Shown: piece by piece, positions 3,725-58,887 of the stretch
Layout of the letters: every line of letters starts with the position of its first letter
How positions within the stretch are numbered: the stretch's first letter is position 1
Assembly: GCF_016584665.1 (NCBI RefSeq)
Contig: NZ_BBJB01000077.1
Location: forward strand, 1-64,000
Direction of reading: 5' to 3'
DNA: 64,000 nt
Origin: Pseudanabaena sp. lw0831
Lineage (GTDB): Bacteria > Cyanobacteriota > Cyanobacteriia > Pseudanabaenales > Pseudanabaenaceae
The notes under the pieces: generated by a model
Told to the model about the DNA's origin: nothing
The model's database searches: none
The model's input: only the letters and a program-made list of their open reading frames with translations
Position numbers and translations under genes: made by a program

Positions 3725-5161
3725 TCATGATTTTTGAATTGTGTTTACCACACGGCGGCGTGTTTCTAAGATCTGACTGATTTCACGGGCAAAACTAGGC
3801 TGGCGATCGATCATTTGATTAACAGCATTAGCAGACAGCATCATCACTTCTAAATCCTCGATCGCTGTTACTGATATCGGACTATGCTCACCAGAAAAAA
3901 GCGTCATCTCACCAAAAAATTCGCCAGTCTTGATTGTTAAAAGCTCATGTTCGATATGCTCACGATCGCAGACGGACATAATCGCAGTACCAGCGATCAC
4001 AATATACAGCGCATTATTACTGACTCCTTGCCAGATTACTTTCTCACCCGCGCCATAATGTTGCAAATCAATACCATCGGCAACAGAATCAGGGTTTTGT
4101 AATGGCACAAAAGCCGGAACAGATTGCAGGCTCTCGGTAAATTTCTTGGAAGTTCCCTGAGCCTGTAAGGTAGGACCATTAAAATGATAAAGAGTGCGAA
4201 TGGGAAAAGGAATCGTCAGGTTATTGCGTTGGGCGGCATACCAGATCCGACTCATAAAGCGATCGCGAATACTTTCAATGTTGCTGTAGTCATCGATATA
4301 AAACTTCACCTCGTAGGTAATCGCAAAGTCATCGTAGGAAATTGTAAAAATCTCTGGCTCTGGATCTTTTAAAATGCCTTCAGTCTCAAGAGCCGTAGTC
4401 AGCAAAACATGTTTGGCCAAATTGGGCGGATCGTTATAAGAGAATCCATGACGAATCCGTTCCGCATGAATAGCGATCGGGCGGCTAAAGTTGCGAATAA
4501 TCGCATTGCCAATGAGCTTGTGTGGAATAATCACCATTTCGCGCTCGAAGGTTTGTAAACGCACGGCTCGCCAATTGATATCAATCACTTGTCCAGTCAA
4601 ATCACCGACTTCCAGCCAATCACCGACGGAGAAAGGTCGCTCAAATATCAGTGCAATTCCTGACATAACGCTGCCGAGGGTATCTTGGAGCGCTAAACCA
4701 ATCACAATCGAGCTAACACCTAGAGCAGTAACTAATCCAGCGAGATCGGCATTCCAGACTGTAGCAAGGACGATCGCCACACCCAAAAGCACTAAAAACA
4801 GACGAAAGAGATCGATTAAGAGCTTAGGAACTCGCGCTCGCCAAGTATCGGCTTTTGCTTGCTCAAAAATGATCGCATTCAGTAGCGATAACGCCGCGTG
4901 CAATACGAAAATCCAAAATAGAGTTTGGACACTTTTAACAAGGTCGTCACTAGCAGGACGTTGCAGCACATACTGGATAAACAACATGAAGGCGAGCATT
5001 GGTAGCACCAAATTTCGCACTACTTGCAATGTGGCGACGAGGGGGCGGCGGCGATGTTGTAAGCGATAGATAACTTCGCCAAGAATAATTACCGACAGTG
5101 CTAGTCCGACAATTAAGGCGATCGCCCAAATAAACAGATGATTGGCAGTAGGTTGCAGCAT
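3725..5161 (-). CDS. MscS mechanosensitive channel with C-terminal cNMP-binding domain
   Basis: The 478-residue protein starts with four or five membrane helices. It continues with the MscS pore and beta domain (VGLALQDTLGSVMSGIALIFERPFSVGDWLE, then the NFSR region) and ends with a cyclic-nucleotide-binding domain from about residue 360 (GEFFGEMTLFSGEHSPISVTA, the phosphate-binding cassette region). It would gate ion flow under membrane tension or on cNMP binding. Start 5161 has an upstream GGAA. The alternative start at 5191 lies inside a hairpin that appears to terminate the upstream gene, so it is rejected. It follows an adenylate cyclase gene, which suggests cAMP is its ligand. Confidence 0.92.
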   Translation of the reverse strand: MLQPTANHLFIWAIALIVGLALSVIILGEVIYRLQHRRRPLVATLQVVRNLVLPMLAFMLFIQYVLQRPASDDLVKSVQTLFWIFVLHAALSLLNAIIFEQAKADTWRARVPKLLIDLFRLFLVLLGVAIVLATVWNADLAGLVTALGVSSIVIGLALQDTLGSVMSGIALIFERPFSVGDWLEVGDLTGQVIDINWRAVRLQTFEREMVIIPHKLIGNAIIRNFSRPIAIHAERIRHGFSYNDPPNLAKHVLLTTALETEGILKDPEPEIFTISYDDFAITYEVKFYIDDYSNIESIRDRFMSRIWYAAQRNNLTIPFPIRTLYHFNGPTLQAQGTSKKFTESLQSVPAFVPLQNPDSVADGIDLQHYGAGEKVIWQGVSNNALYIVIAGTAIMSVCDREHIEHELLTIKTGEFFGEMTLFSGEHSPISVTAIEDLEVMMLSANAVNQMIDRQPSFAREISQILETRRRVVNTIQKS

Positions 5162-5180
5162 ATTGTGATTTCCAAATGAA

Positions 5181-5211
5181 GTTAAGAACATGGGTTTGCC
5201 ATGTTCTTAAC
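5181..5211 (-). terminator. Hairpin between cyclase and MscS genes
   Basis: A perfect 13-bp stem (GTTAAGAACATGG) with a 5-nt loop overlaps the cyclase stop codon at 5207. It could end or attenuate read-through into the channel gene. Confidence 0.75.
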
Positions 5212-7339
5212 TTGGCTTAATTTTGCTCGTGCTTTTCAGTTGCCATGCTTCTAAAGTGGTTTCACCATCCTCAATTTTGGTGGCTAGGGGTGCAAACTCG
5301 TAGAGGTCGCATAGGCGACTGTAAATTTCGTGAGACACTAAAATTGATCCTTCGGGACAGGCCGACTTTAAGGCGCTAGCAATATTGATCGTGTCGCCCC
5401 ATACATCGTAGATAAATTTATTTCTGCCGACAATGCCAGCCACGATATCACCTGAGTTAATCCCTAAGCTGATATTCAATTTGAATCCACGCTCTTGGCT
5501 AAACCGTCGCACGATCGCTTGCATCTCCAGCGCAAAATCGATTGCCCTTTTGTCATGGTCGAGATAGGGCACTGATAGCCCACAAACTGCCATATAGCTG
5601 TCACCAATGGTTTTGATTTTTTCCATACCAAAGCGATCGGCGGTTTCATCAAAGCTCGTGACCAGATCGTTGAGAATGCTGACAATTTCGTAAGCAGTAA
5701 GAGAATCTGATAACTTCGAGAATCCCGTCAAATCCGAAAATAGCACCGTCACATTAGAAGCACTCTCGGCAATATTCTTTTCACCTTGCTTAAGACGTTT
5801 AGCGATCGCCGCAGGAAAGATGCTCAGCAATAATTGCTCATTTTCGCGATTTTTTTCTTCGACTAAGTTTGTCTGATCGTGCAAGCTCGATACCATTAAG
5901 TTAAAAGACTGCGCGAGTTCGCCAAATTCATCTTGAGTTTCTAAAACCGCGATCGCATCTAATTGACCAGAGGCCACTTTACGAGCGCTGGCAATTAATT
6001 GATTAATCGGTTTCACAAATAAAGAAGCCATCACCATCGCCAATAAAACAACTAACAACATTAATAGAGTTGCCGAAATTACTAACTGGCGCTCAAAATC
6101 ATTAATTGGCGCATAGGCTTCTGCTAAGTTGATCTCCGATAGAATGGCCCATTTTAATCCTTCTATTTGTAAAAGTGAGTAGGAACTGAGAACAGGAATA
6201 TCACGATAATCACGGATGATTTTAATACCTTGCTTACCCATCATGGATTCCTCAACGGCGGTAGTCCGAACAACTTGCGCCAAAACCGAGGTCTTGTATT
6301 GACGAATTCTATTAATCGTTTCGTTATTAACGCCTAAAGCAACTAGCGTTTGAATGTATTCTTCAGGAGTTTCGATCAAAAATCGCGAAACCGATCGCAT
6401 TAAAAAATCTTGACCGACTAAATAGGTTTCACCACTTTTGCCCAAGCCATCACTTTCCCACTTGCGATTGCCCGTCATCACATTATTAATCTCATCGACG
6501 GGAACTTGAATTGCGAGAACGCCAATAAATTTATCTTGATTATAGATAGGTGCAGCAATAAAGGCGGCCGGAGCGCCATAGGAAGGAGAATAGGCTTCAA
6601 AATCGATAATTCGCGCATAGTCCTTTTCTTTAGAACGGCGCACTGATACGAATAGACGGGCAAGATTACTTTCGTTATATGCGCCAACGGTGAGGCTAGA
6701 AGCAAAATCTGTCTCTTTATAAACTGTATAAACTATTCTGCCATCAGGATCAATTAGGAACAAATCATAGTAACCAAATTTCTCAATAATATTCCGAAAG
6801 ATCGGATGATAACGACTATGGAGGCGACTGTATTCGCTACTATCATTGGCTTTGTCTAAGAGATGCTTTTTGCCAATAGAATTAGAATTATTGGCGATGT
6901 AATGATATTGCAGATAATTACTAGCGATCGCTTCTGGTAAAAATGAATTCAAAACAGGAGAACCTTGCTCTGTTTGCGCCAACTTGGGCAGAAATTCATT
7001 TTGATAATATGCATTAATTTTGGGGGATGCATCGGCTGGTAAAGGTACATTCTCAAGCTGTCTGTATGCGTTCGTGAATTCGGCGATCGCTGTTCCCACT
7101 GAAGGATCGTTACTCAACGTTTGAATATGATTGCGAATTGTTTTGAAATAGGATTCGATTTGATAAGCCTTGGAAGCCCGCACGCTGGTTAGCTGATTAA
7201 ACACGCGATCGGTCAAATTGGACTTCCCGCTTTGATAACCAAGATATGCAGTCACGAGGATCGAGCTACTGCTAACCGTGAGCAGCATCACAATCAGTTT
7301 CGACTTAATACTCAGCCAATTAAATTTTAACCATTGCAT
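5207..7339 (-). CDS. Membrane adenylate cyclase (Cache-HAMP-class III cyclase)
   Basis: The 710-residue protein has an N-terminal membrane helix (about 15-32), a large extracytoplasmic double-Cache-like sensor (about 35-400), a second helix (about 418-440), a HAMP segment and a class III cyclase domain (about 520-690). Metal-binding Asp residues lie in LFSDLTGF and TIGDSYM. Adenine-selecting Lys (EKIKTIGD) and Asp (YDVWGDTIN) are present, so ATP rather than GTP is the expected substrate. It turns an external signal into cAMP. It lies upstream of and in line with the cNMP-domain MscS gene. Confidence 0.93.
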   Translation of the reverse strand: MQWLKFNWLSIKSKLIVMLLTVSSSSILVTAYLGYQSGKSNLTDRVFNQLTSVRASKAYQIESYFKTIRNHIQTLSNDPSVGTAIAEFTNAYRQLENVPLPADASPKINAYYQNEFLPKLAQTEQGSPVLNSFLPEAIASNYLQYHYIANNSNSIGKKHLLDKANDSSEYSRLHSRYHPIFRNIIEKFGYYDLFLIDPDGRIVYTVYKETDFASSLTVGAYNESNLARLFVSVRRSKEKDYARIIDFEAYSPSYGAPAAFIAAPIYNQDKFIGVLAIQVPVDEINNVMTGNRKWESDGLGKSGETYLVGQDFLMRSVSRFLIETPEEYIQTLVALGVNNETINRIRQYKTSVLAQVVRTTAVEESMMGKQGIKIIRDYRDIPVLSSYSLLQIEGLKWAILSEINLAEAYAPINDFERQLVISATLLMLLVVLLAMVMASLFVKPINQLIASARKVASGQLDAIAVLETQDEFGELAQSFNLMVSSLHDQTNLVEEKNRENEQLLLSIFPAAIAKRLKQGEKNIAESASNVTVLFSDLTGFSKLSDSLTAYEIVSILNDLVTSFDETADRFGMEKIKTIGDSYMAVCGLSVPYLDHDKRAIDFALEMQAIVRRFSQERGFKLNISLGINSGDIVAGIVGRNKFIYDVWGDTINIASALKSACPEGSILVSHEIYSRLCDLYEFAPLATKIEDGETTLEAWQLKSTSKIKPS

Positions 7340-22959: not shown

Positions 22960-25900
22960 ATGGAGTATCGACCAATGAATCGAGAGGCTAAGTCCTTAAA
23001 TATTGAAAGTAATAGTAGGACTGAAGTCATCCGAGTCGGCGTGATGCACTTTCCGAGTGTCGTTATGGGCACTGGCGATGCGCTGGTTAAAGATGCAACC
23101 TTGATGGCGATCGCAGAGATTAATCAATCGGGAGGCATATTAGGAAAAATTGTCGAACCAATCGTTGTAGATATCGCTTCTAATGACTACAACATTACGG
23201 TACAAGCTCGATACCTACTATCAGAATTGAATATTAGCAACTTATTTGGTGGCGGATCATCTTCATCTCGAAAAAGTATTATTCCCATCCTCGAAAAACA
23301 TCAAGCTCAACTTTGGTATCCCTATTATTACGAAGGGCTAGAATCTTCTAGGAATGTATTTTATACGGGTGCTTGCCCCAATCAGGTTGTGCAGCCAGCA
23401 GTTAATTGGCTGCTACAAAACAAAGGAAATAGCATTTACTTGCTCGGAACCGACGGAATTTATTCACGTACGGTTAATAAAATTATTCGCGCTCAAATCA
23501 AGCAGCAAAATGGCTTGATATTGTGTGAAGACTATATCCCGCAAAATGCGTCCGAATATCACGATAGTATTGCCAAAATTAAGCATATAGTCCCTGATGC
23601 TGTCATTAGCACATTGAATCCCGAAAAATCAATAGCTTTTTTACAGCAATATGCCGAAGCTGGAATTAAAGCTGAAGATATTCCCATTTTATCAATGCGA
23701 TTAACGGATGTGGAACTGTGGCAACTCAGCCAAAATATCGATCCATCTGCGATCGCAGGTCATCTTGCTTGTGCAAATTATTTTCAAAGCATAGAGACAG
23801 CCCAAAATCTTGATTTTCTGCGTAAATTCGCCATTTGGTTTGGATTAAAGCAGGAGCGATCGCTAGCAGTTAATGCGGTAATGCAATCCGCCTATACTCA
23901 AGTATTTTTGTGGAAGCAAGCAGTTGAAGCTGTCCAAACTTTTGATGTATTACCAGTTCGTAAAGCTGTCTACGATCAAATCTGTTTAGCACCTGCTGGC
24001 AAAATGATGATTGCGCTCAACCATCACATTGCCACAGCCTGTCGTGTTGCCGAAGTTAATTCGACAGGAAAATTTGAAATCTTATACACAGTCGATCCGA
24101 TTAAACCACTGCCTTGGTTGGGAGCAGAGGAGTTAAATCCAAACCAATCAATCGTAGTAATTGAGATGCTTATGGAAATTGCCCAAGGCATTCAGCGAGG
24201 CTGGAAATTTGAAAAAGAAGTTCAAGATCTGGAATTTACAATTACACGTCTATTAGGCCGTGGTCAGAGTAAAGGTCGTAACCAACTAGCTCCTGAAATT
24301 ACTCGCGCGGCGATGTCTAAAATGTTTAAAGCAAATCAGCGCTTACTCAAAGCGCAATCCGATCTGTTAAATGTTGAAGGTGAGTTGCGGGATGCCAATG
24401 AATTATTGGAACGGCGGATTGAGCAACGCACGCTCCAATTACAAAAGACGATCAAACGTTTGCAAAATGAGGCGGCGGATCGCCAGCAAGCAGAAGTACT
24501 GCTACGAGAAAGTCAGCAAAGATTTTCTGCGATCGCAGACAATGTGCCGGGGGTCGTCTATCGCGCAGTTTTACATCCCGATGGTAGCGTCTCGATGCCC
24601 TATATCAGCCCTCGTACTCAAGAAATATTTAGCATATCCGTTGAAGAGTTTACTGAGCATTTGGAATGGGTATTTGATATGGCTCATCCTGAAGATCGCG
24701 CAGCACTCAGTGAGATGGTAAGAATATCAGCCGAAGAACTGATGACTTTTGAGCATGAATATCGAGTCTCTAGTTTCTTTAAGAAAGTTAAATGGGTGAG
24801 AATCATTTCTCAACCCCATCGCAATCAAAATGGTGATACGGTCTGGGATGGTGTGATTATTGATATTAGTCATCAAAAACAGATCGAAGAGTCCCTTCGC
24901 CAAGCGGAAGAGAAGTATCGCAGCATTTTTGAACATGCGATCGAGGGCATTTTTCAGGCGCAAACTGATGGATGTTATATCAACGCTAATCCTGCGCTTG
25001 CGAATATTTATGGCTATGAAACTCCTACACAGCTAATGACTGAAGTGGCGGTCGATCCATATCGGCTATTTGCTGAACCACATCGTTATCAAGAATTTCT
25101 GCATCAAATTGAAACTGACGGTTCTGTGGCAAGCTTTGAAGCTTTGGTATATAAAAGCGATCGCAGTATCATTTGGATTTTGATTAATGCTAGAGCTAAC
25201 TATGATGAACAAGGAAACTTTATTGGCTATGAAGGACTTGTTCAAGATATTACAGAGCGCAAGAAAGCGGAACAAGCTCTCAAAGCCGAGCAAGAAAAAT
25301 CTGAAAATTTATTGCTAAATATTTTGCCAAAAGAGATTGTCAATCAACTGAAGATCGGGAATAATGCGATCGCTTCAAGATCGGAAAATGTCTCCATATT
25401 GTTTGCGGATATTGTGGACTTCACAGCGCTCTCTTCGCAAGTTTCCCCTAATGACTTAGTGACTATGCTCAATGGAATTTTCTCTTCTTTTGACATGCTT
25501 GCCGATCAGTTGGGATTAGAAAAAATTAAAACAATTGGTGATGCCTATATGGTAGTTGGAGGATTGCCAACTGCCCGCTCCGATCATGCAGAAGCGATCG
25601 CTGAGATGGCTCTAGCTATGCAAAAATCAATTTCTAATTTTAACCGTGGTGACGATACTCCCTTCCGTTTACGAATTGGGATTAATACGGGTGCAGTTGT
25701 GGCAGGGGTAATTGGCATCCGTAAATTTATTTACGATCTTTGGGGGGATGCTGTCAATGTCGCTAGTCGGATGGAATCTCATGGTTTAGCAGGGGGGATT
25801 CAAGTCACACAGACAACCTATGAGTTACTCAAAGATAAGTATAACTTCTGGCATCGCGGCAAAATATTTGTTAAGGGCCGAGGTGAAATGGATACCTATA

Positions 25901-25986
25901 TGTTGCTTGATAGTAAGTCTCAACTAAAACCTGATGTATTGGAATTAAGCCAAGAGGTGTCGCAAAGCATCTCTGCTTCGGTATAG
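22960..25986 (+). CDS. Adenylate cyclase with substrate-binding-protein-like and PAS sensor domains
   Basis: The 1008-residue protein has an N-terminal type I periplasmic-binding-like domain of the urea/amide (UrtA/AmiC) kind (about 20-400: IRVGVMHFPSVVMGTGDAL, GGGSSSSRKSIIPILEKH). A coiled coil (about 455-510), two PAS domains (about 515-770) and a class III cyclase (about 800-980) follow. Cyclase metal Asp residues lie in LFADIVDF and TIGDAYM; EKIKTIGD Lys and YDLWGDAVN Asp predict ATP as substrate. There is no signal peptide or membrane helix, so the binding domain would act inside the cell, as in AmiC. It probably makes cAMP in response to a small amide or urea-like ligand; ligand identity is inference. 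Confidence 0.93.
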   Translation: MEYRPMNREAKSLNIESNSRTEVIRVGVMHFPSVVMGTGDALVKDATLMAIAEINQSGGILGKIVEPIVVDIASNDYNITVQARYLLSELNISNLFGGGSSSSRKSIIPILEKHQAQLWYPYYYEGLESSRNVFYTGACPNQVVQPAVNWLLQNKGNSIYLLGTDGIYSRTVNKIIRAQIKQQNGLILCEDYIPQNASEYHDSIAKIKHIVPDAVISTLNPEKSIAFLQQYAEAGIKAEDIPILSMRLTDVELWQLSQNIDPSAIAGHLACANYFQSIETAQNLDFLRKFAIWFGLKQERSLAVNAVMQSAYTQVFLWKQAVEAVQTFDVLPVRKAVYDQICLAPAGKMMIALNHHIATACRVAEVNSTGKFEILYTVDPIKPLPWLGAEELNPNQSIVVIEMLMEIAQGIQRGWKFEKEVQDLEFTITRLLGRGQSKGRNQLAPEITRAAMSKMFKANQRLLKAQSDLLNVEGELRDANELLERRIEQRTLQLQKTIKRLQNEAADRQQAEVLLRESQQRFSAIADNVPGVVYRAVLHPDGSVSMPYISPRTQEIFSISVEEFTEHLEWVFDMAHPEDRAALSEMVRISAEELMTFEHEYRVSSFFKKVKWVRIISQPHRNQNGDTVWDGVIIDISHQKQIEESLRQAEEKYRSIFEHAIEGIFQAQTDGCYINANPALANIYGYETPTQLMTEVAVDPYRLFAEPHRYQEFLHQIETDGSVASFEALVYKSDRSIIWILINARANYDEQGNFIGYEGLVQDITERKKAEQALKAEQEKSENLLLNILPKEIVNQLKIGNNAIASRSENVSILFADIVDFTALSSQVSPNDLVTMLNGIFSSFDMLADQLGLEKIKTIGDAYMVVGGLPTARSDHAEAIAEMALAMQKSISNFNRGDDTPFRLRIGINTGAVVAGVIGIRKFIYDLWGDAVNVASRMESHGLAGGIQVTQTTYELLKDKYNFWHRGKIFVKGRGEMDTYMLLDSKSQLKPDVLELSQEVSQSISASV

Positions 25987-54026: not shown

Positions 54027-55481
54027 TTAGTCTTCTTCGTCATCATCAAATTGCAGATCATCGATTGGATAGACATCTGGCCAAGCCGATGCACCATGTT
54101 CGTAAACATCAATACCAATGCGATCGGCTTCAGGATTGACTCGTAACAGTCCAACAGCATTGAGTGCGCCAAACATTAAAAATGAGAATATAACAACAAA
54201 GATGATAATCGCTACTTCACCACCGAGTTGTACTCCGAGCAAATCAAAACCTCCTCCTAGGAATAGACCAGCTTTTTTATTCATCGTTAATGCTGGGTGT
54301 CCAAATAAGCCAACACAGATTATGCCCATCATGCCGCATACGCCATGCACCGCAAATGCGCCAACAGGATCGTCAATTTCAAACCATTCAATAACATCTA
54401 CAGCAACGAGTACAAGGACACCAGCCACTGCGCCAATTAAAGCTGCCGCCCAAGGCATGACATAAGCACAGCCTGCCGTAATCGCGACTAAACCAGCGAG
54501 TGAGCCGTTTAGTCCACAGAATAAGTGCCACTGACGAATGCGAAAGTAAATGTAGAGAAATGCGGTCATCGCCCCAGCCGAAGCAGCTAGAGTCGTATTA
54601 ACAACAATCAATCCCGCTAGTCCAGGATTACTGAGCGTCAGGGTTGAACCAGCATTAAACCCATACCAACCAAACCATAAAATCATCGTGCCAATCGTGG
54701 CATAGCCTAGATTATGAGCTGGTGGGATTTGTCCCCATACCCGATCGGGGCGAGGACCGAGAATATATGCACCAACCAAAGCTGTCCACCCACCCACAGT
54801 ATGTACGGCAGCATCTCCTGCAAAATCATGGAAGCCGAGCTTATATAACCAACCACCATTGTTCCAAGCCCAATGCACGACTATGGGATACATTACAGCT
54901 CCCATGATAAAGGCGTAAATTAAGTCGCCTTTAAAATCAGTCCGCTCAGCCATTGACCCTGTGGTGATCGTACTCGCGGTTGCGGAAAAAGCAAACTGAA
55001 AGAAGAAAAGGGTGAATGTACTAACTGGCGCAGTCGAACCGCCCGCCCCCATTGCATATTCGATCGCGCCATTACTGATCGTCAATGCGTTATTTAAAAA
55101 GAACCCGTCTGTCCCAAAAAAACCATTGCTAGTTGTACCGAAGGCGATCGCAAAACCCGTAACCCACCATGCTAAGAGGGTAATAGCCGCATCAACAAAG
55201 TTTTCGGCAAGTGTATTTACAACCCCAGTCTGTCTGACTAGCCCTGCCTCCAGCATGGCAAATCCACATTGCATAAAAAACACTAAAAACCCTGTGATTA
55301 GTACCCAACCAGTATCAACCGATAGCTTTAGCTCATTTGTGCTTTTAGTTAAAGATTCCAATGTCCCCGTCTCGATCGCATGGGAGATCGTTGGCGTAAA
55401 TGCAGCAAATATCGCTGCCCCGATCGAGATCGCTAAAAAACGCGCCAAATAATTCTTTCTTTTTGTTGTCACTTTTGCCAT
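54027..55481 (-). CDS. amt: Ammonium transporter
   Basis: The 484-residue protein begins with a cleavable-looking signal (MAKVTTKRKNYLARFLAISIG...). It continues with 11 membrane helices of the Amt fold: FFMQCGFAMLEAGLVR, NGGWLYKLGFHDFAGDAAVH, the HTVGGW motif, and the second pore His in AFAVHGVCGMMG. It imports ammonium/ammonia. The C-terminal tail is short and acidic. No glnB/glnK gene is adjacent, and I found no clear NtcA box (GTA-N8-TAC) upstream. Confidence 0.96.
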   Translation of the reverse strand: MAKVTTKRKNYLARFLAISIGAAIFAAFTPTISHAIETGTLESLTKSTNELKLSVDTGWVLITGFLVFFMQCGFAMLEAGLVRQTGVVNTLAENFVDAAITLLAWWVTGFAIAFGTTSNGFFGTDGFFLNNALTISNGAIEYAMGAGGSTAPVSTFTLFFFQFAFSATASTITTGSMAERTDFKGDLIYAFIMGAVMYPIVVHWAWNNGGWLYKLGFHDFAGDAAVHTVGGWTALVGAYILGPRPDRVWGQIPPAHNLGYATIGTMILWFGWYGFNAGSTLTLSNPGLAGLIVVNTTLAASAGAMTAFLYIYFRIRQWHLFCGLNGSLAGLVAITAGCAYVMPWAAALIGAVAGVLVLVAVDVIEWFEIDDPVGAFAVHGVCGMMGIICVGLFGHPALTMNKKAGLFLGGGFDLLGVQLGGEVAIIIFVVIFSFLMFGALNAVGLLRVNPEADRIGIDVYEHGASAWPDVYPIDDLQFDDDEED

Positions 55482-55555
55482 GATTTAGATCCATACACCA
55501 CTATTTGGATTGTTGAGTATTTAAATCTTGTCTTGAAGATTTTAGATTGGCTGCT

Positions 55556-55658
55556 AAGTACCCTAAAACAATTAAAAATTCATAGCCAAAATCTGTATCG
55601 CCCGCATATCTGGGGGCAAAGATTTTTGGGTTTTATATTTAATTGTTCTAGGGTACTT
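55556..55658. repeat. Palindromic repeat element, copy 1
   Basis: The ends AAGTACCCTAAAACAATT and their complement match at 20 of 21 positions. The inner part (CCAAAATCTGTATCGCCCGC) is imperfectly paired. It is homologous to 59051-59154. Confidence 0.8.
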
Positions 55659-55933
55659 AAAACATCAACGAGATTAATCATTGCAGGATGATGATTTGAT
55701 CGGTTGATGCTTTTTATAAAGTTTTATTCCCCTAAAATCTGTTAATCCGTCGCTTATCCCCTTAATCAAATTTTCAGAGGCTGCTAGAGAAATAACAGCA
55801 AAGTTAATTTTGCAAATAGACGTAAGTTTAACCCTACTTTCTTATACGTTTAAAGGATGATCTATGAAAGTGTCGATAAGTACAGTCAACCTTGTGGGGG
55901 TTGCAACGATAGTCTGCAGGTTTTACCAGTACG

Positions 55934-55994
55934 TGTGATCGATGTCACAGTAAGCATGTTTAACGATCGCAGTTTTGTTGTGAGCTGAGTCACT
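55934..55994. promoter_or_regulatory. Two CRP-type binding sites
   Basis: TGTGATCGATGTCACA at 55934-55949 is a canonical TGTGA-N6-TCACA site. TGTGAGCTGAGTCACT at 55979-55994 matches in nine of ten consensus bases, with centres 45 bp apart. Cyanobacterial CRP homologues (SyCRP1 type) bind this consensus with cAMP. The nearest downstream feature on the plus strand is a terminator at 56055, then the MBL-fold gene. Confidence 0.7.
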
Positions 55995-56005
55995 ACTAAC
56001 AGCAG

Positions 56006-56083
56006 AAAAAAGAAAGATACTCTACTCACTAGCGACGTATCTACATAATTTCTCCCCGCAAGAATGCCTCCTGCGGGTTTTTT
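56006..56083 (+). ncRNA. Candidate small RNA or terminated leader
   Basis: A short transcript is suggested by CRP sites upstream, a possible -10 (TACTAA at 55994-55999), a stem AGATAC/GTATCT (about 56025-56052) and a strong terminator at its end. There is no ORF and no known RNA family recognised; it does not carry the Yfr1 core. Existence as an RNA is inference. Confidence 0.35.
56055..56083 (+). terminator. Rho-independent terminator
   Basis: CCCGCA and TGCGGG form a stem followed by TTTTTT. No coding gene ends here on the plus strand, so it must end a non-coding transcript or attenuate the MBL gene. Confidence 0.85.
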
Positions 56084-56087
56084 ATGT

Positions 56088-56128
56088 CAAAAGATAGAGA
56101 CTGCGCTTTGCTCAGTCTCTATCTTTTG
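56088..56128. repeat. Hairpin in the MBL-gene leader
   Basis: CAAAAGATAGAGACTG pairs with its complement around GC-TTT-GC. It lies between the terminator and the MBL start, which argues against the in-frame start at 56084. Confidence 0.8.
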
Positions 56129-56182
56129 GATCGTAAACAATTCGTTACAATATTATGTAGAAATTTACCAACGCAAAAAACT

Positions 56183-56959
56183 ATGTACCTAACATGGCTA
56201 GACAGTAATTCTTGGCTGATCGAGATTGCAGGCAAACGGATCTTGCTTGATCCTTGGCTAGTTGATGCCCTGATGTTTGGTAATGCTGCGTGGTTTTTCA
56301 AATCTGAGCGACGGACACCAAGAGAAATACCAAAAAATATTGATTTGATTTTGCTGTCACAGGGCTTGCCAGATCACGCTCACCCTGCAACGCTTAAGCA
56401 ACTCGATCGCCAAATTCCTGTGGTAGGTTCACCGAGTGCTGCCAAACTAGTTAGGGAATTGGAGTATAAGCAAGTTACAGCTCTTGCTCATGGTGAAGTA
56501 TTTAGCATTCCCAATCTTCTAGAAATTAGAGCCGTTCTGGGTTCTCCCACTGGGCCAAACACCTTTGAGAATGGCTATATTTTGAAGGATCTCGTGGAAG
56601 GAACTTCTATTTATTACGAACCTCACGGCTATCATGCCGCCGCAATTCAAGAATTTGCACCTGTTGATGTGGTGATCACACCCACAATTGATTTGAAGTT
56701 GCCTCTAATTGGTACAGTCATCAAAGGACAGCAAGGTGCTGTGCAGGTTGCGAAGTGGCTGAAGCCTCAAGTAATGTTGCCAACTGCGGCAGGTGGCGAT
56801 TTGACCTATAGCGGGTTCTTGCTAAATATTTTGAAGGCAGAAGGAACGATAGATTCTTTGCGATCGCTATTTATAGAAAATAATATTTCCACACAAGTGA
56901 TTGAGCCTAAACCTTGGGAACGCTTTGAAGTCAAGCTCCAGAAATTAGCCGTTATATAA
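56183..56959 (+). CDS. MBL-fold hydrolase-like protein with altered metal site
   Basis: The 258-residue protein starts at 56183 (MYLTWLDSNSWLIEI). The fold fits metallo-beta-lactamase hydrolases (KRILLDPWLVDAL, IDLILLSQGLPDHAHPATLK). Where the family has HxHxDH this protein has QGLPDHAH, so the first two His ligands are absent and only Asp-His remain. It may be a non-canonical or inactive hydrolase. An in-frame start at 56084 would run through a hairpin and is rejected. Confidence 0.82.
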   Translation: MYLTWLDSNSWLIEIAGKRILLDPWLVDALMFGNAAWFFKSERRTPREIPKNIDLILLSQGLPDHAHPATLKQLDRQIPVVGSPSAAKLVRELEYKQVTALAHGEVFSIPNLLEIRAVLGSPTGPNTFENGYILKDLVEGTSIYYEPHGYHAAAIQEFAPVDVVITPTIDLKLPLIGTVIKGQQGAVQVAKWLKPQVMLPTAAGGDLTYSGFLLNILKAEGTIDSLRSLFIENNISTQVIEPKPWERFEVKLQKLAVI

Positions 56960-56992
56960 AAAAGGGAGCGCTAAGCGCTCCCTTTTTTATAT
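56954..56992. terminator. Hairpin between MBL gene and ftsH
   Basis: ATATAAAAAAGGGAGCGC pairs with its complement; it contains the MBL stop codon and ends 3 bp from the ftsH stop codon. Confidence 0.85.
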
Positions 56993-56994
56993 TT

Positions 56995-58887
56995 TTAGAA
57001 CTTGACTGAAGCAGTTTTCTTTTCAGGTAGTTGCGTGTATTCGGCAACGATTTTACGAAACTCTTCGCCGTCTAAAGTCTCTACATCTAGCAGAATATCG
57101 ACTAGGCGATCGCACAAGTCACGATTTTCTTCGATCAAGCGCTTGGCGGTGTCGTAACAGGTTTGGGCAATCTGACGAATTTGACGATCAATGCGATCGC
57201 CTAGTTTGACCGAATAATCATTTTGAGGCATCATATTGCGTCCCAAAAAGACCTCGCCGCTTTCGCTTTCGAGTGCGCCCAAACCCAAATCAGACATGCC
57301 AAATTGAGTCACCATCAATCGCGTTAGCCTTGCGACTTGCTGAAAATCGCCCGATGCACCTGTGGTAATTTCAGCATCACCAAAGACTACTTCTTCGGCA
57401 GCTCTACCACCGAGCATCATTGTAATTGTGTCCAGAATCTGCGATCGCGACTCTAGACCATATTCTTCATCGGGCACACCTTTGGCAAACCCACCAATAC
57501 CGCCAGAGCGAGGCACGATGGTGATTTTGTCGAGCAAAGATGCATTTTTAAGCAAGGTCATTACTAGGGCATGACCAACTTCGTGATAGGCAACCAAACG
57601 TTTTTTGGAGCTATCGAGCATTGGTTTCATGGTTAACCCAATGGTAATGCGATCGATCGCATCGGCAATTTCTAGTTCCCCAATCGCCTCTTTATAACGA
57701 CGTGCTGCCAAGATTGCTGCTTCGTTTAACAGGTTAGCCAAGTCCGCACCTGCAAACCCAGGAGTCAAACGAGCTACTGACTCAAGGGAGACACTTTCCT
57801 CAAGTTTTTTGTTGCGGGCATGGACTTTGAGGATTTCTTGACGACCTTTATAGTCGGGATAGTCAACTGTAATTTGGCGATCAAAACGACCTGGTCTGAG
57901 CAAAGCGCTATCTAGTACATCAGGGCGGTTAGTTGCGGCTACGACGATCACACCCGAATTACCTTGAAATCCGTCCATTTCCGTGAGCATTTGGTTTAGG
58001 GTTTGCTCACGCTCATCGTTGCCGCCGCCGATGCCCGATCCACGTTGCCGACCGACTGCATCAATTTCATCTATGAAAATGATACATGGAGCATTATCTT
58101 TGGCTTTTTGGAATAAATCACGGACGCGGGAAGCACCCACACCCACAAACATTTCTACAAACTCTGAACCTGACAGCGAAAAGAAAGGAACCCCCGCCTC
58201 TCCTGCGATCGCCTTGGCTAATAGGGTCTTACCTGTCCCTGGAGGACCAATCAGCAAAACGCCCTTAGGGATTTTTGCGCCAACCGCCGTAAAGCGATCG
58301 GGCTGTTTAAGAAATGTAACGACTTCCTGTAATTCTTCTTTTGCCGTATCAATCCCCGCCACATCCTCAAACATGATCCCCGTTTTTGCTTCAGGAGAGA
58401 ACCTTGCCTTAGTTTTGCCAAAGCTGAGGGTCTGTCCAGGCCCACCAGGAGCATTGCTGAGGCGGCGTAACACCATTAGTAATATGAAAATCAACAGCAT
58501 TGGCACAAAAAATGTACTCACCAGTTGCCAAATTAAGGTTGGCTGCTGAGGAGCTTTCACCGCTGTATCGACACTATTTTCCCGTAGAGCCTTCATTAAC
58601 TCGGTATTGCCATCACGGGCAATTAAGTCAACCCTGACCTTGCGCCCATCTTTCAAAACTGCTTCTGCGGCAAGCCCGTTGCTTTCTAAATCGATTTTTT
58701 GAACTCGATTTTCTTTCACATTCGCGAGCAGCTCGGTATAGCTGATAGTCACAGCGCTTTCAGCATCAGCTTGTGCAGATACTGGTAAGGTGGTCGCTAC
58801 ACTTTGCAATATGGCTAAACTTACGACTGTTGTTTTGACGCGCCGCCAAAAGTTTGCCAAAAAGATTTTTTTTCCAGAAGACATCAC
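56995..58887 (-). CDS. ftsH: ATP-dependent zinc metalloprotease FtsH
   Basis: The 630-residue protein has two N-terminal membrane helices, with an extracytoplasmic segment between them, then an AAA domain (Walker A GPPGTGKT, Walker [20 protein letters not shown] region) and the peptidase zinc motif HEVGH with a distal Asp. It forms thylakoid or plasma-membrane hexamers that degrade damaged membrane proteins such as photodamaged D1. HEVGH in place of the commoner HEAGH keeps both His and Glu. Which of the four cyanobacterial FtsH types it is cannot be told from sequence alone. Confidence 0.97.

Follow-up and report, generated by a model that had tools for sequence, protein, structure and literature searches.

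Genomic context of the locus

The DNA analysed here, called the window throughout, is a stretch of 64,000 nucleotides from Pseudanabaena sp. lw0831, in which the block at 55934-56083 lies between a gene for an ammonium transporter (amt) and one for a protein of metallo-beta-lactamase fold (MBL). The features needed for the discussion are as follows:

3725-5191, minus strand: MscS-like channel with a cNMP domain
5207-7339, minus strand: class III cyclase
22960-25986, plus strand: fusion protein of a class III cyclase, a periplasmic binding domain (PF13433) and PAS domains
54027-55481, minus strand: amt, ammonium transporter (TIGR00836), divergent and a neighbour only
55934-55949, plus strand: distal CRP site TGTGATCGATGTCACA, a perfect match to TGTGAN6TCACA, centred at -86.5 from the inferred start
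55965-55968, no strand assigned: GATC between both CRP sites, at -63 to -60 (centre -61.5), found in 22 of 23 copies
55979-55994, plus strand: proximal CRP site TGTGAGCTGAGTCACT, one mismatch to TGTGAN6TCACA, centred at -41.5
56016-56021, plus strand: -10 hexamer GATACT, sharing four of six letters with TATAAT
56028-56083, plus strand: inferred small RNA of 56 nt, its start deduced from promoter geometry
56028-56048, plus strand: unpaired 21-nt segment ACTAGCGACGTATCTACATAA, the putative pairing segment, from fold prediction and the 28-copy alignment
56055-56083, plus strand: intrinsic terminator, stem 56055-56060/56072-56077, U tract 56078-56083
56137-56151, plus strand: conserved promoter-like element ACAATTCGTTACAAT of the MBL gene, separate from the small RNA
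56183-56959, plus strand: MBL gene (PF13483), a downstream neighbour only

The preliminary description of this DNA had reported a pair of CRP-like sites 45 bp apart from centre to centre, a possible -10 box, a terminator at which no gene ends, and two adenylate cyclases together with a cNMP-domain channel in the same window, and all these elements were recovered. No open reading frame of at least 50 amino acids lies within 55692-56083, and the frame listed from 56084 is that of the MBL gene extended upstream of its conserved start at 56183. Judging from its domains, the cyclase at 22960-25986 may respond to small molecules outside the cell.

Two structures near the block deserve mention on their own account. 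A 40-nt imperfect inverted repeat (80%) lies at 55555-55659 upstream of amt, perhaps in its leader, and directly past the terminator there is a near-perfect 19-bp hairpin, AAAAGATAGAGACTG...CAGTCTCTATCTTTT, at 56088-56128. The latter is probably a dispersed palindromic element, because similar copies occur elsewhere in the same genome (C93:51956-51999) and in several relatives.

Predicted promoter and transcript

Within the window, the distal site is the sole perfect CRP match and the proximal site is one of three matches with a single mismatch. With up to two mismatches allowed, 34 matches were observed against 27.5 expected, a number reached in 8 of 100 shuffles; since the window is hardly enriched at this level, such counts alone prove little. 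Among 23 aligned copies, the distal site retains GTGA-N6-TCAC in 21 (L004 and L018 are off by one letter), while the proximal site retains it in all 23, varying in position by no more than 1 bp. With +1 set at the A of ACTAG, the centre of the proximal site falls at -41.5 in 21 copies and at -42.5 in two, and the distal centre at -86.5 in 20, at -87.5 in two and at -85.5 in one. Five further copies, including two at an unrelated locus of another genus in which the proximal site has seven of the eight core letters, carry their sites at -86.5 and -41.5, and both sites lie within 1 bp of these positions in 28 of 28 copies. CRP promoters of class II have their site centred at -41.5 and, relative to the inferred start, the arrangement of the sites is of this class II geometry. 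The gap from the proximal site to the -10 hexamer measures 21 bp here, and in a survey of cyanobacterial CRP sites (PMC2633013, available text) the site is followed at about 22 bp by a -10 box. In other copies the hexamer reads [GC]ATA[AC]T, with the exception of L018 (GACAAT). The GATC at 55965-55968 could belong to the site of another factor.

From this geometry, the predicted transcript would begin at A56028, the A of ACTAGCGACG, and end after the hairpin CCCGCA...TGCGGG (56055-56077) and the six T of 56078-56083. A strict scan of 55000-57000 called neither a promoter nor a terminator at the small-RNA locus, because the 11-nt terminator loop closes only via a 2-bp inner stem and the promoter has no -35 box. 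Folded alone, the 56-nt RNA is predicted to form the terminator hairpin only, leaving its first 27 nt unpaired, and the stability of the fold is not exceptional with respect to shuffled sequences (z -1.4). The first 16 nt of the RNA are identical in 28 of 28 copies, 25 of the 26 copies from the genus agree over the whole 21-nt segment (in L018, C17 is changed to A), and 47 of 58 alignment columns are invariant among the 23 copies. In the two copies of the other genus the terminator stem is different, CCGTTAGC.../GCTAACGG, with pairing retained and the first 16 nt unchanged. The CCUCC of the terminator loop has been lost in these copies, as well as in L088 and L089, and therefore the loop is unlikely to be the essential pairing part.

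Conservation and distribution

By the preliminary description's own criterion, its idea would fall if the sites and terminator were not conserved in relatives, and the idea withstood this comparison. A DNA search found the block in each of the 22 other genus genomes and in 0 of 15 genomes of other families. A covariance model built from the 23 copies, and run on 388 genomes with stricter filters by which weak matches may be lost, then retrieved it in 26 of 26 genomes of the genus, in 2 of the 12 family genomes outside the genus and in 0 of the 350 remaining ones. The pattern of a CRP site plus CTAGCGACG recovered from the same 388 genomes the same 26 and one of the two other-genus genomes, in addition to single matches in G024 and G159 that look like chance, whereas the reversed control pattern occurs in about 25 places, none of which is in the genus. 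Among the 38 family genomes, a 16-mer search allowing one mismatch led to the same 28, with an extra one-mismatch place in G003. In a scan of named genomes for an exact 20-mer, 19 contigs were found. Fifteen bear the name Pseudanabaena, among them contigs of Pseudanabaena biceps PCC 7429 and Pseudanabaena sp. UWO311; the others are from one Phormidium tenue, one Oscillatoriales MAG and two uncultured cyanobacteria.

Along the locus, ungapped pairwise identity among 23 genomes runs from 0.26-0.30 upstream of the block to 0.42-0.62 over the promoter and 0.81-0.83 at the RNA start, then declines to 0.61-0.49 over the terminator, where a spacer indel of 1-2 nt shifts the register, and to 0.31-0.28 beyond the block. 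The flanks of the 23 copies are at background identity. In the two genomes of another genus of the same family, the block sits at a different locus and with a different terminator stem. A chance origin of the block was rejected in view of its conservation. We consider it very likely that the locus is a real, conserved gene for a small RNA, with a class II promoter of CRP type.

The putative activator and cAMP machinery

Which protein would recognise these sites? The best candidate is P0001, a CRP-family protein with cNMP_binding and HTH_Crp_2 domains, both over their cut-offs, which corresponds to a reading frame of 230 amino acids without its first residue, next to a gene resembling murC by eye. 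The protein aligns with CRP structures and carries RETVTRV in the region of the recognition helix and GEM...RS in the cNMP domain, residues whose roles we assume after E. coli CRP; it scores 68.5 of 266 bits against the NCBIfam model of E. coli CRP, below cut-off. Orthologues with at least 70% identity are present in 37 of 38 family genomes, including 10 (of the 12 outside the genus) that lack the RNA, and none was found in G006, a genome 82% complete that carries the RNA. The genome also encodes other relatives of CRP fold, namely the paralogue P0002 and NtcA (TIGR03697). From the sequence of the sites and the presence of the orthologue, cAMP-CRP control of the small RNA is likely.

The whole genome of 5.26 Mb contains six perfect CRP sites against three for the reversed control pattern. 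Two of the other five fall inside ORFs, and the remaining three precede mechanically listed ORFs: one for a cAMP phosphodiesterase, by about 130 bp, one for a DUF3352 protein, by about 70 bp, and one for a small protein that looks exported, by about 100 bp. The site ahead of the phosphodiesterase gene (NF008359, over cut-off), at L061 1501-1516, suggests feedback on cAMP; it also runs into the start of a mechanical ORF on the opposite, divergent side.

Candidate targets of the RNA

Searches for complements of the conserved segment led to one candidate of interest. With TAGATACGTC, sites were found in the pyrH (UMP kinase) leader of three of the six genus genomes among seven genomes searched, and this leader is our best target candidate. 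It contains TATGTAG[A/G]TACGTC, followed by CTAG, complementary to nt 2-20 of the RNA, and the A/G alternation preserves the predicted pairing through G-U. In the lw0831 genome the predicted duplex has 19 pairs in blocks of 14, 1 and 4, with an energy of -23.1 kcal/mol versus -21.9 for the best non-self tile among 1704 tiles of the window (mean -11.3, sd 2.7), a comparison in which leaders, scored over 260 nt, are favoured over tiles of 150 nt. Chance sites equal to the pyrH duplex are to be expected in the whole genome.

Of 30 pyrH loci, 27 could be scored. Among the 22 genus leaders 17 reach -19.1 or better, two reach -16.9 and three are weaker, while the five leaders from outside the genus lack the site and none is better than -12.3. 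By sequence, the complementary site is present in 19 of 24 genus leaders (a count that leaves out L355, missed by the extraction pattern), with mismatches to the RNA in the near-identical L356 and L358; it is absent in L349, L350, L352, L360 and L362, which come from genomes keeping the RNA. Because several genomes retain the RNA without the site, which is also missing from the five non-genus leaders, pyrH cannot be the sole target. Moreover, the site forms part of a block, GCCATTTGCCGTAGAAAC..GGTATGTAGRTACGTC, that extends over about 70 bp ahead of pyrH, is seen in L348 (G000:C67) and others of L339-L363, and resembles a promoter or a leader element; since the whole block is conserved and not just its pairing part, it may be a promoter. 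As many of the genomes are close relatives, these pyrH counts are not independent.

The complement 10-mer GATACGTCGC occurs in the lw0831 genome at two tandem paralogous genes (L123), with the sites inside the self-complementary GCGATACGTCGC. For the complement 9-mer ATACGTCGC, searched in 23 genomes, 15 of them of the genus, 60 contexts from nine genus genomes were examined among the matches listed; in these its recurrent places are coding, one antisense to a permease-like gene and one in a GyrB-like gene, both named by eye, with other recurrences in a near-identical repeat-like gene (L165/L186) and in a place common to two close species (L157/L181). For CGTCGCTAG, all 84 places besides the RNA gene in the same seven genomes were read, and the recurrent ones lie in mechanical ORFs. 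As a side observation, the tandem genes at L123 4488-5466 encode small membrane-like proteins and have the motif GCGATACGTCGCAAYGCC before each.

Interpretation and alternative explanations

The reading that accounts best for these data is that 55934-56083 constitutes a gene in its own right, encoding a regulatory small RNA of 56 nt that is activated by cAMP-CRP and pairs in trans with mRNAs, a view that we hold with considerable confidence. Rising cAMP would lead P0001 to bind the site at -41.5, probably with the help of the site at -86.5, and P0001 would then activate transcription from A56028 in the manner of class II CRP promoters, with the transcript ending at the hairpin 56055-56083. The nearly invariant unpaired 5' segment would pair in trans with at least one mRNA, altering its translation or stability. 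In its narrower form the proposal has nt 2-20 pairing with the pyrH leader, coupling cAMP to the supply of pyrimidine nucleotides, with further targets where the pyrH site is missing; this we advance tentatively and regard as rather doubtful. The CRP-driven small RNA that the preliminary description had put forward is strongly supported by comparative genomics. The other possibility raised there, an attenuated leader of the MBL gene, did not survive, as discussed below.

The two neighbours of the RNA suggest other explanations, which we rejected on synteny and spacing. In nearly every copy whose contig is long enough, MBL follows in the same orientation at 128-394 bp from the start of the RNA, and the block might be a regulatory or attenuated leader of this gene. 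Yet the spacing varies widely, and each of the 19 copies (out of 23) that hold the gene has a separate, conserved element of GTTACAAT type before it, as does L010, the contig of which ends before MBL (20 of 23 in total); furthermore, the RNA persists without adjacent MBL in L021, despite 1556 bases of room, and in L086 and L087, which belong to another genus. This explanation is already largely refuted and we give it hardly any weight. Equally improbable is that the CRP sites serve the divergent amt, which lies upstream in most copies, and that the remainder is an incidental terminator: the sites stay at the same distance from the rightward -10 and from the RNA start, whereas the distance from RNA start to amt ranges from about 220 to 650 bp, and amt was not found in L023, L088 and L089, where a GAF gene stands instead, or in the other genus. 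None of six neighbouring genes tested was found beside the two other-genus copies.

More serious alternatives accept the small RNA and concern either its activator or its mode of action. NtcA binds sites of the form GTAN8TAC, while the proximal site has the CRP form TGTGAN6TCACA in 23 of 23 copies, and P0001 carries RETVTRV and GEM...RS; these points argue against NtcA or P0002 as the activator, with nitrogen status or another non-cAMP signal as input. On the other side, both proteins are encoded in the genome and share their fold with CRP, P0001 does not reach the cut-off that NCBIfam sets for E. coli CRP, amt adjoins the RNA in most copies, and the NtcA-driven small RNA NsiR4 also has its site at -41.5 (PMC6316151, available text); on balance, a change of activator seems to us improbable. 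With respect to mode of action, base pairing is probable. Small RNAs that act by pairing usually consist of an unpaired conserved segment followed by a terminator, a form that our RNA matches, and the conserved complementary site before pyrH points in the same direction. The competing view, that the RNA binds a protein or sponges another RNA, draws on the 21-nt segment, which exceeds a minimal seed both in length and in the rigidity of its conservation, and on the genomes that keep the whole segment while missing the pyrH site; it is unlikely, albeit with a better chance than the exchange of activator.

Conservation in every sampled Pseudanabaena genome suggests that the cAMP signal is relayed by a small regulatory RNA. 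Through this 56-nt RNA, single-copy and near-invariant, a connection of cAMP with post-transcriptional control can be tested in a genus of cyanobacteria.

Relation to known small RNAs

No match to Rfam 15 families at gathering score was found in the window. Below this score, the region 55850-56180 has 15 matches, the majority of which fall on the distinct hairpin of 56088-56128. The matches that cover the RNA itself, to manA-II, anti-hemB and SpF03 and, in minus orientation, to Yfr19 and Hrs10, were discarded as far below gathering score.

Small RNAs driven by CRP are well known in enterobacteria, and CyaR is an intergenic one, under CRP-cAMP and with an intrinsic terminator. The Pseudanabaena gene shares with CyaR the intergenic position, the CRP-type promoter and the intrinsic terminator, here recognised from sequence alone, but it is cyanobacterial, encodes 56 nt with a single hairpin and has two CRP sites 45 bp apart. 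CRP-dependent small RNAs of enterobacteria have been surveyed in Yersinia (PMC4376681, available text). Among cyanobacteria, the cAMP receptor of Synechocystis has been linked with motility and pili, and that of Anabaena with nitrogen genes (PMC4284465 and PMC2633013, in the text available). In the open-access papers searched, PMC12475003 included, no description of a CRP-driven small RNA in these organisms was seen in the available parts, and the accessible text of a review of cyanobacterial small RNAs (PMC6202907) has 0 occurrences of CRP or cAMP. If the pairing with pyrH were true, this would be, to our knowledge, the first CRP-driven base-pairing RNA in cyanobacteria.

Two cyanobacterial RNAs come closest. 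NsiR4, which has homologues in distant cyanobacteria (PMC6316151, available text), resembles our RNA in being conserved and in having the site of a CRP-family activator at -41.5; compared with NsiR4 by description, our RNA differs in the CRP-type GTGA-N6-TCAC of 23 of 23 copies and in being found only in one family. Yfr1, of 54-69 nt, has an ultraconserved unpaired segment, ACUCCUCACAC, between two stem-loops (PMC2190773, available text). The 28 aligned copies do not contain ACUCCUCACAC, and our RNA lacks the 5' stem-loop and is predicted to form one stem-loop only, but it shares with Yfr1 the size of the RNA, an ultraconserved unpaired segment and a terminator hairpin at the 3' end.
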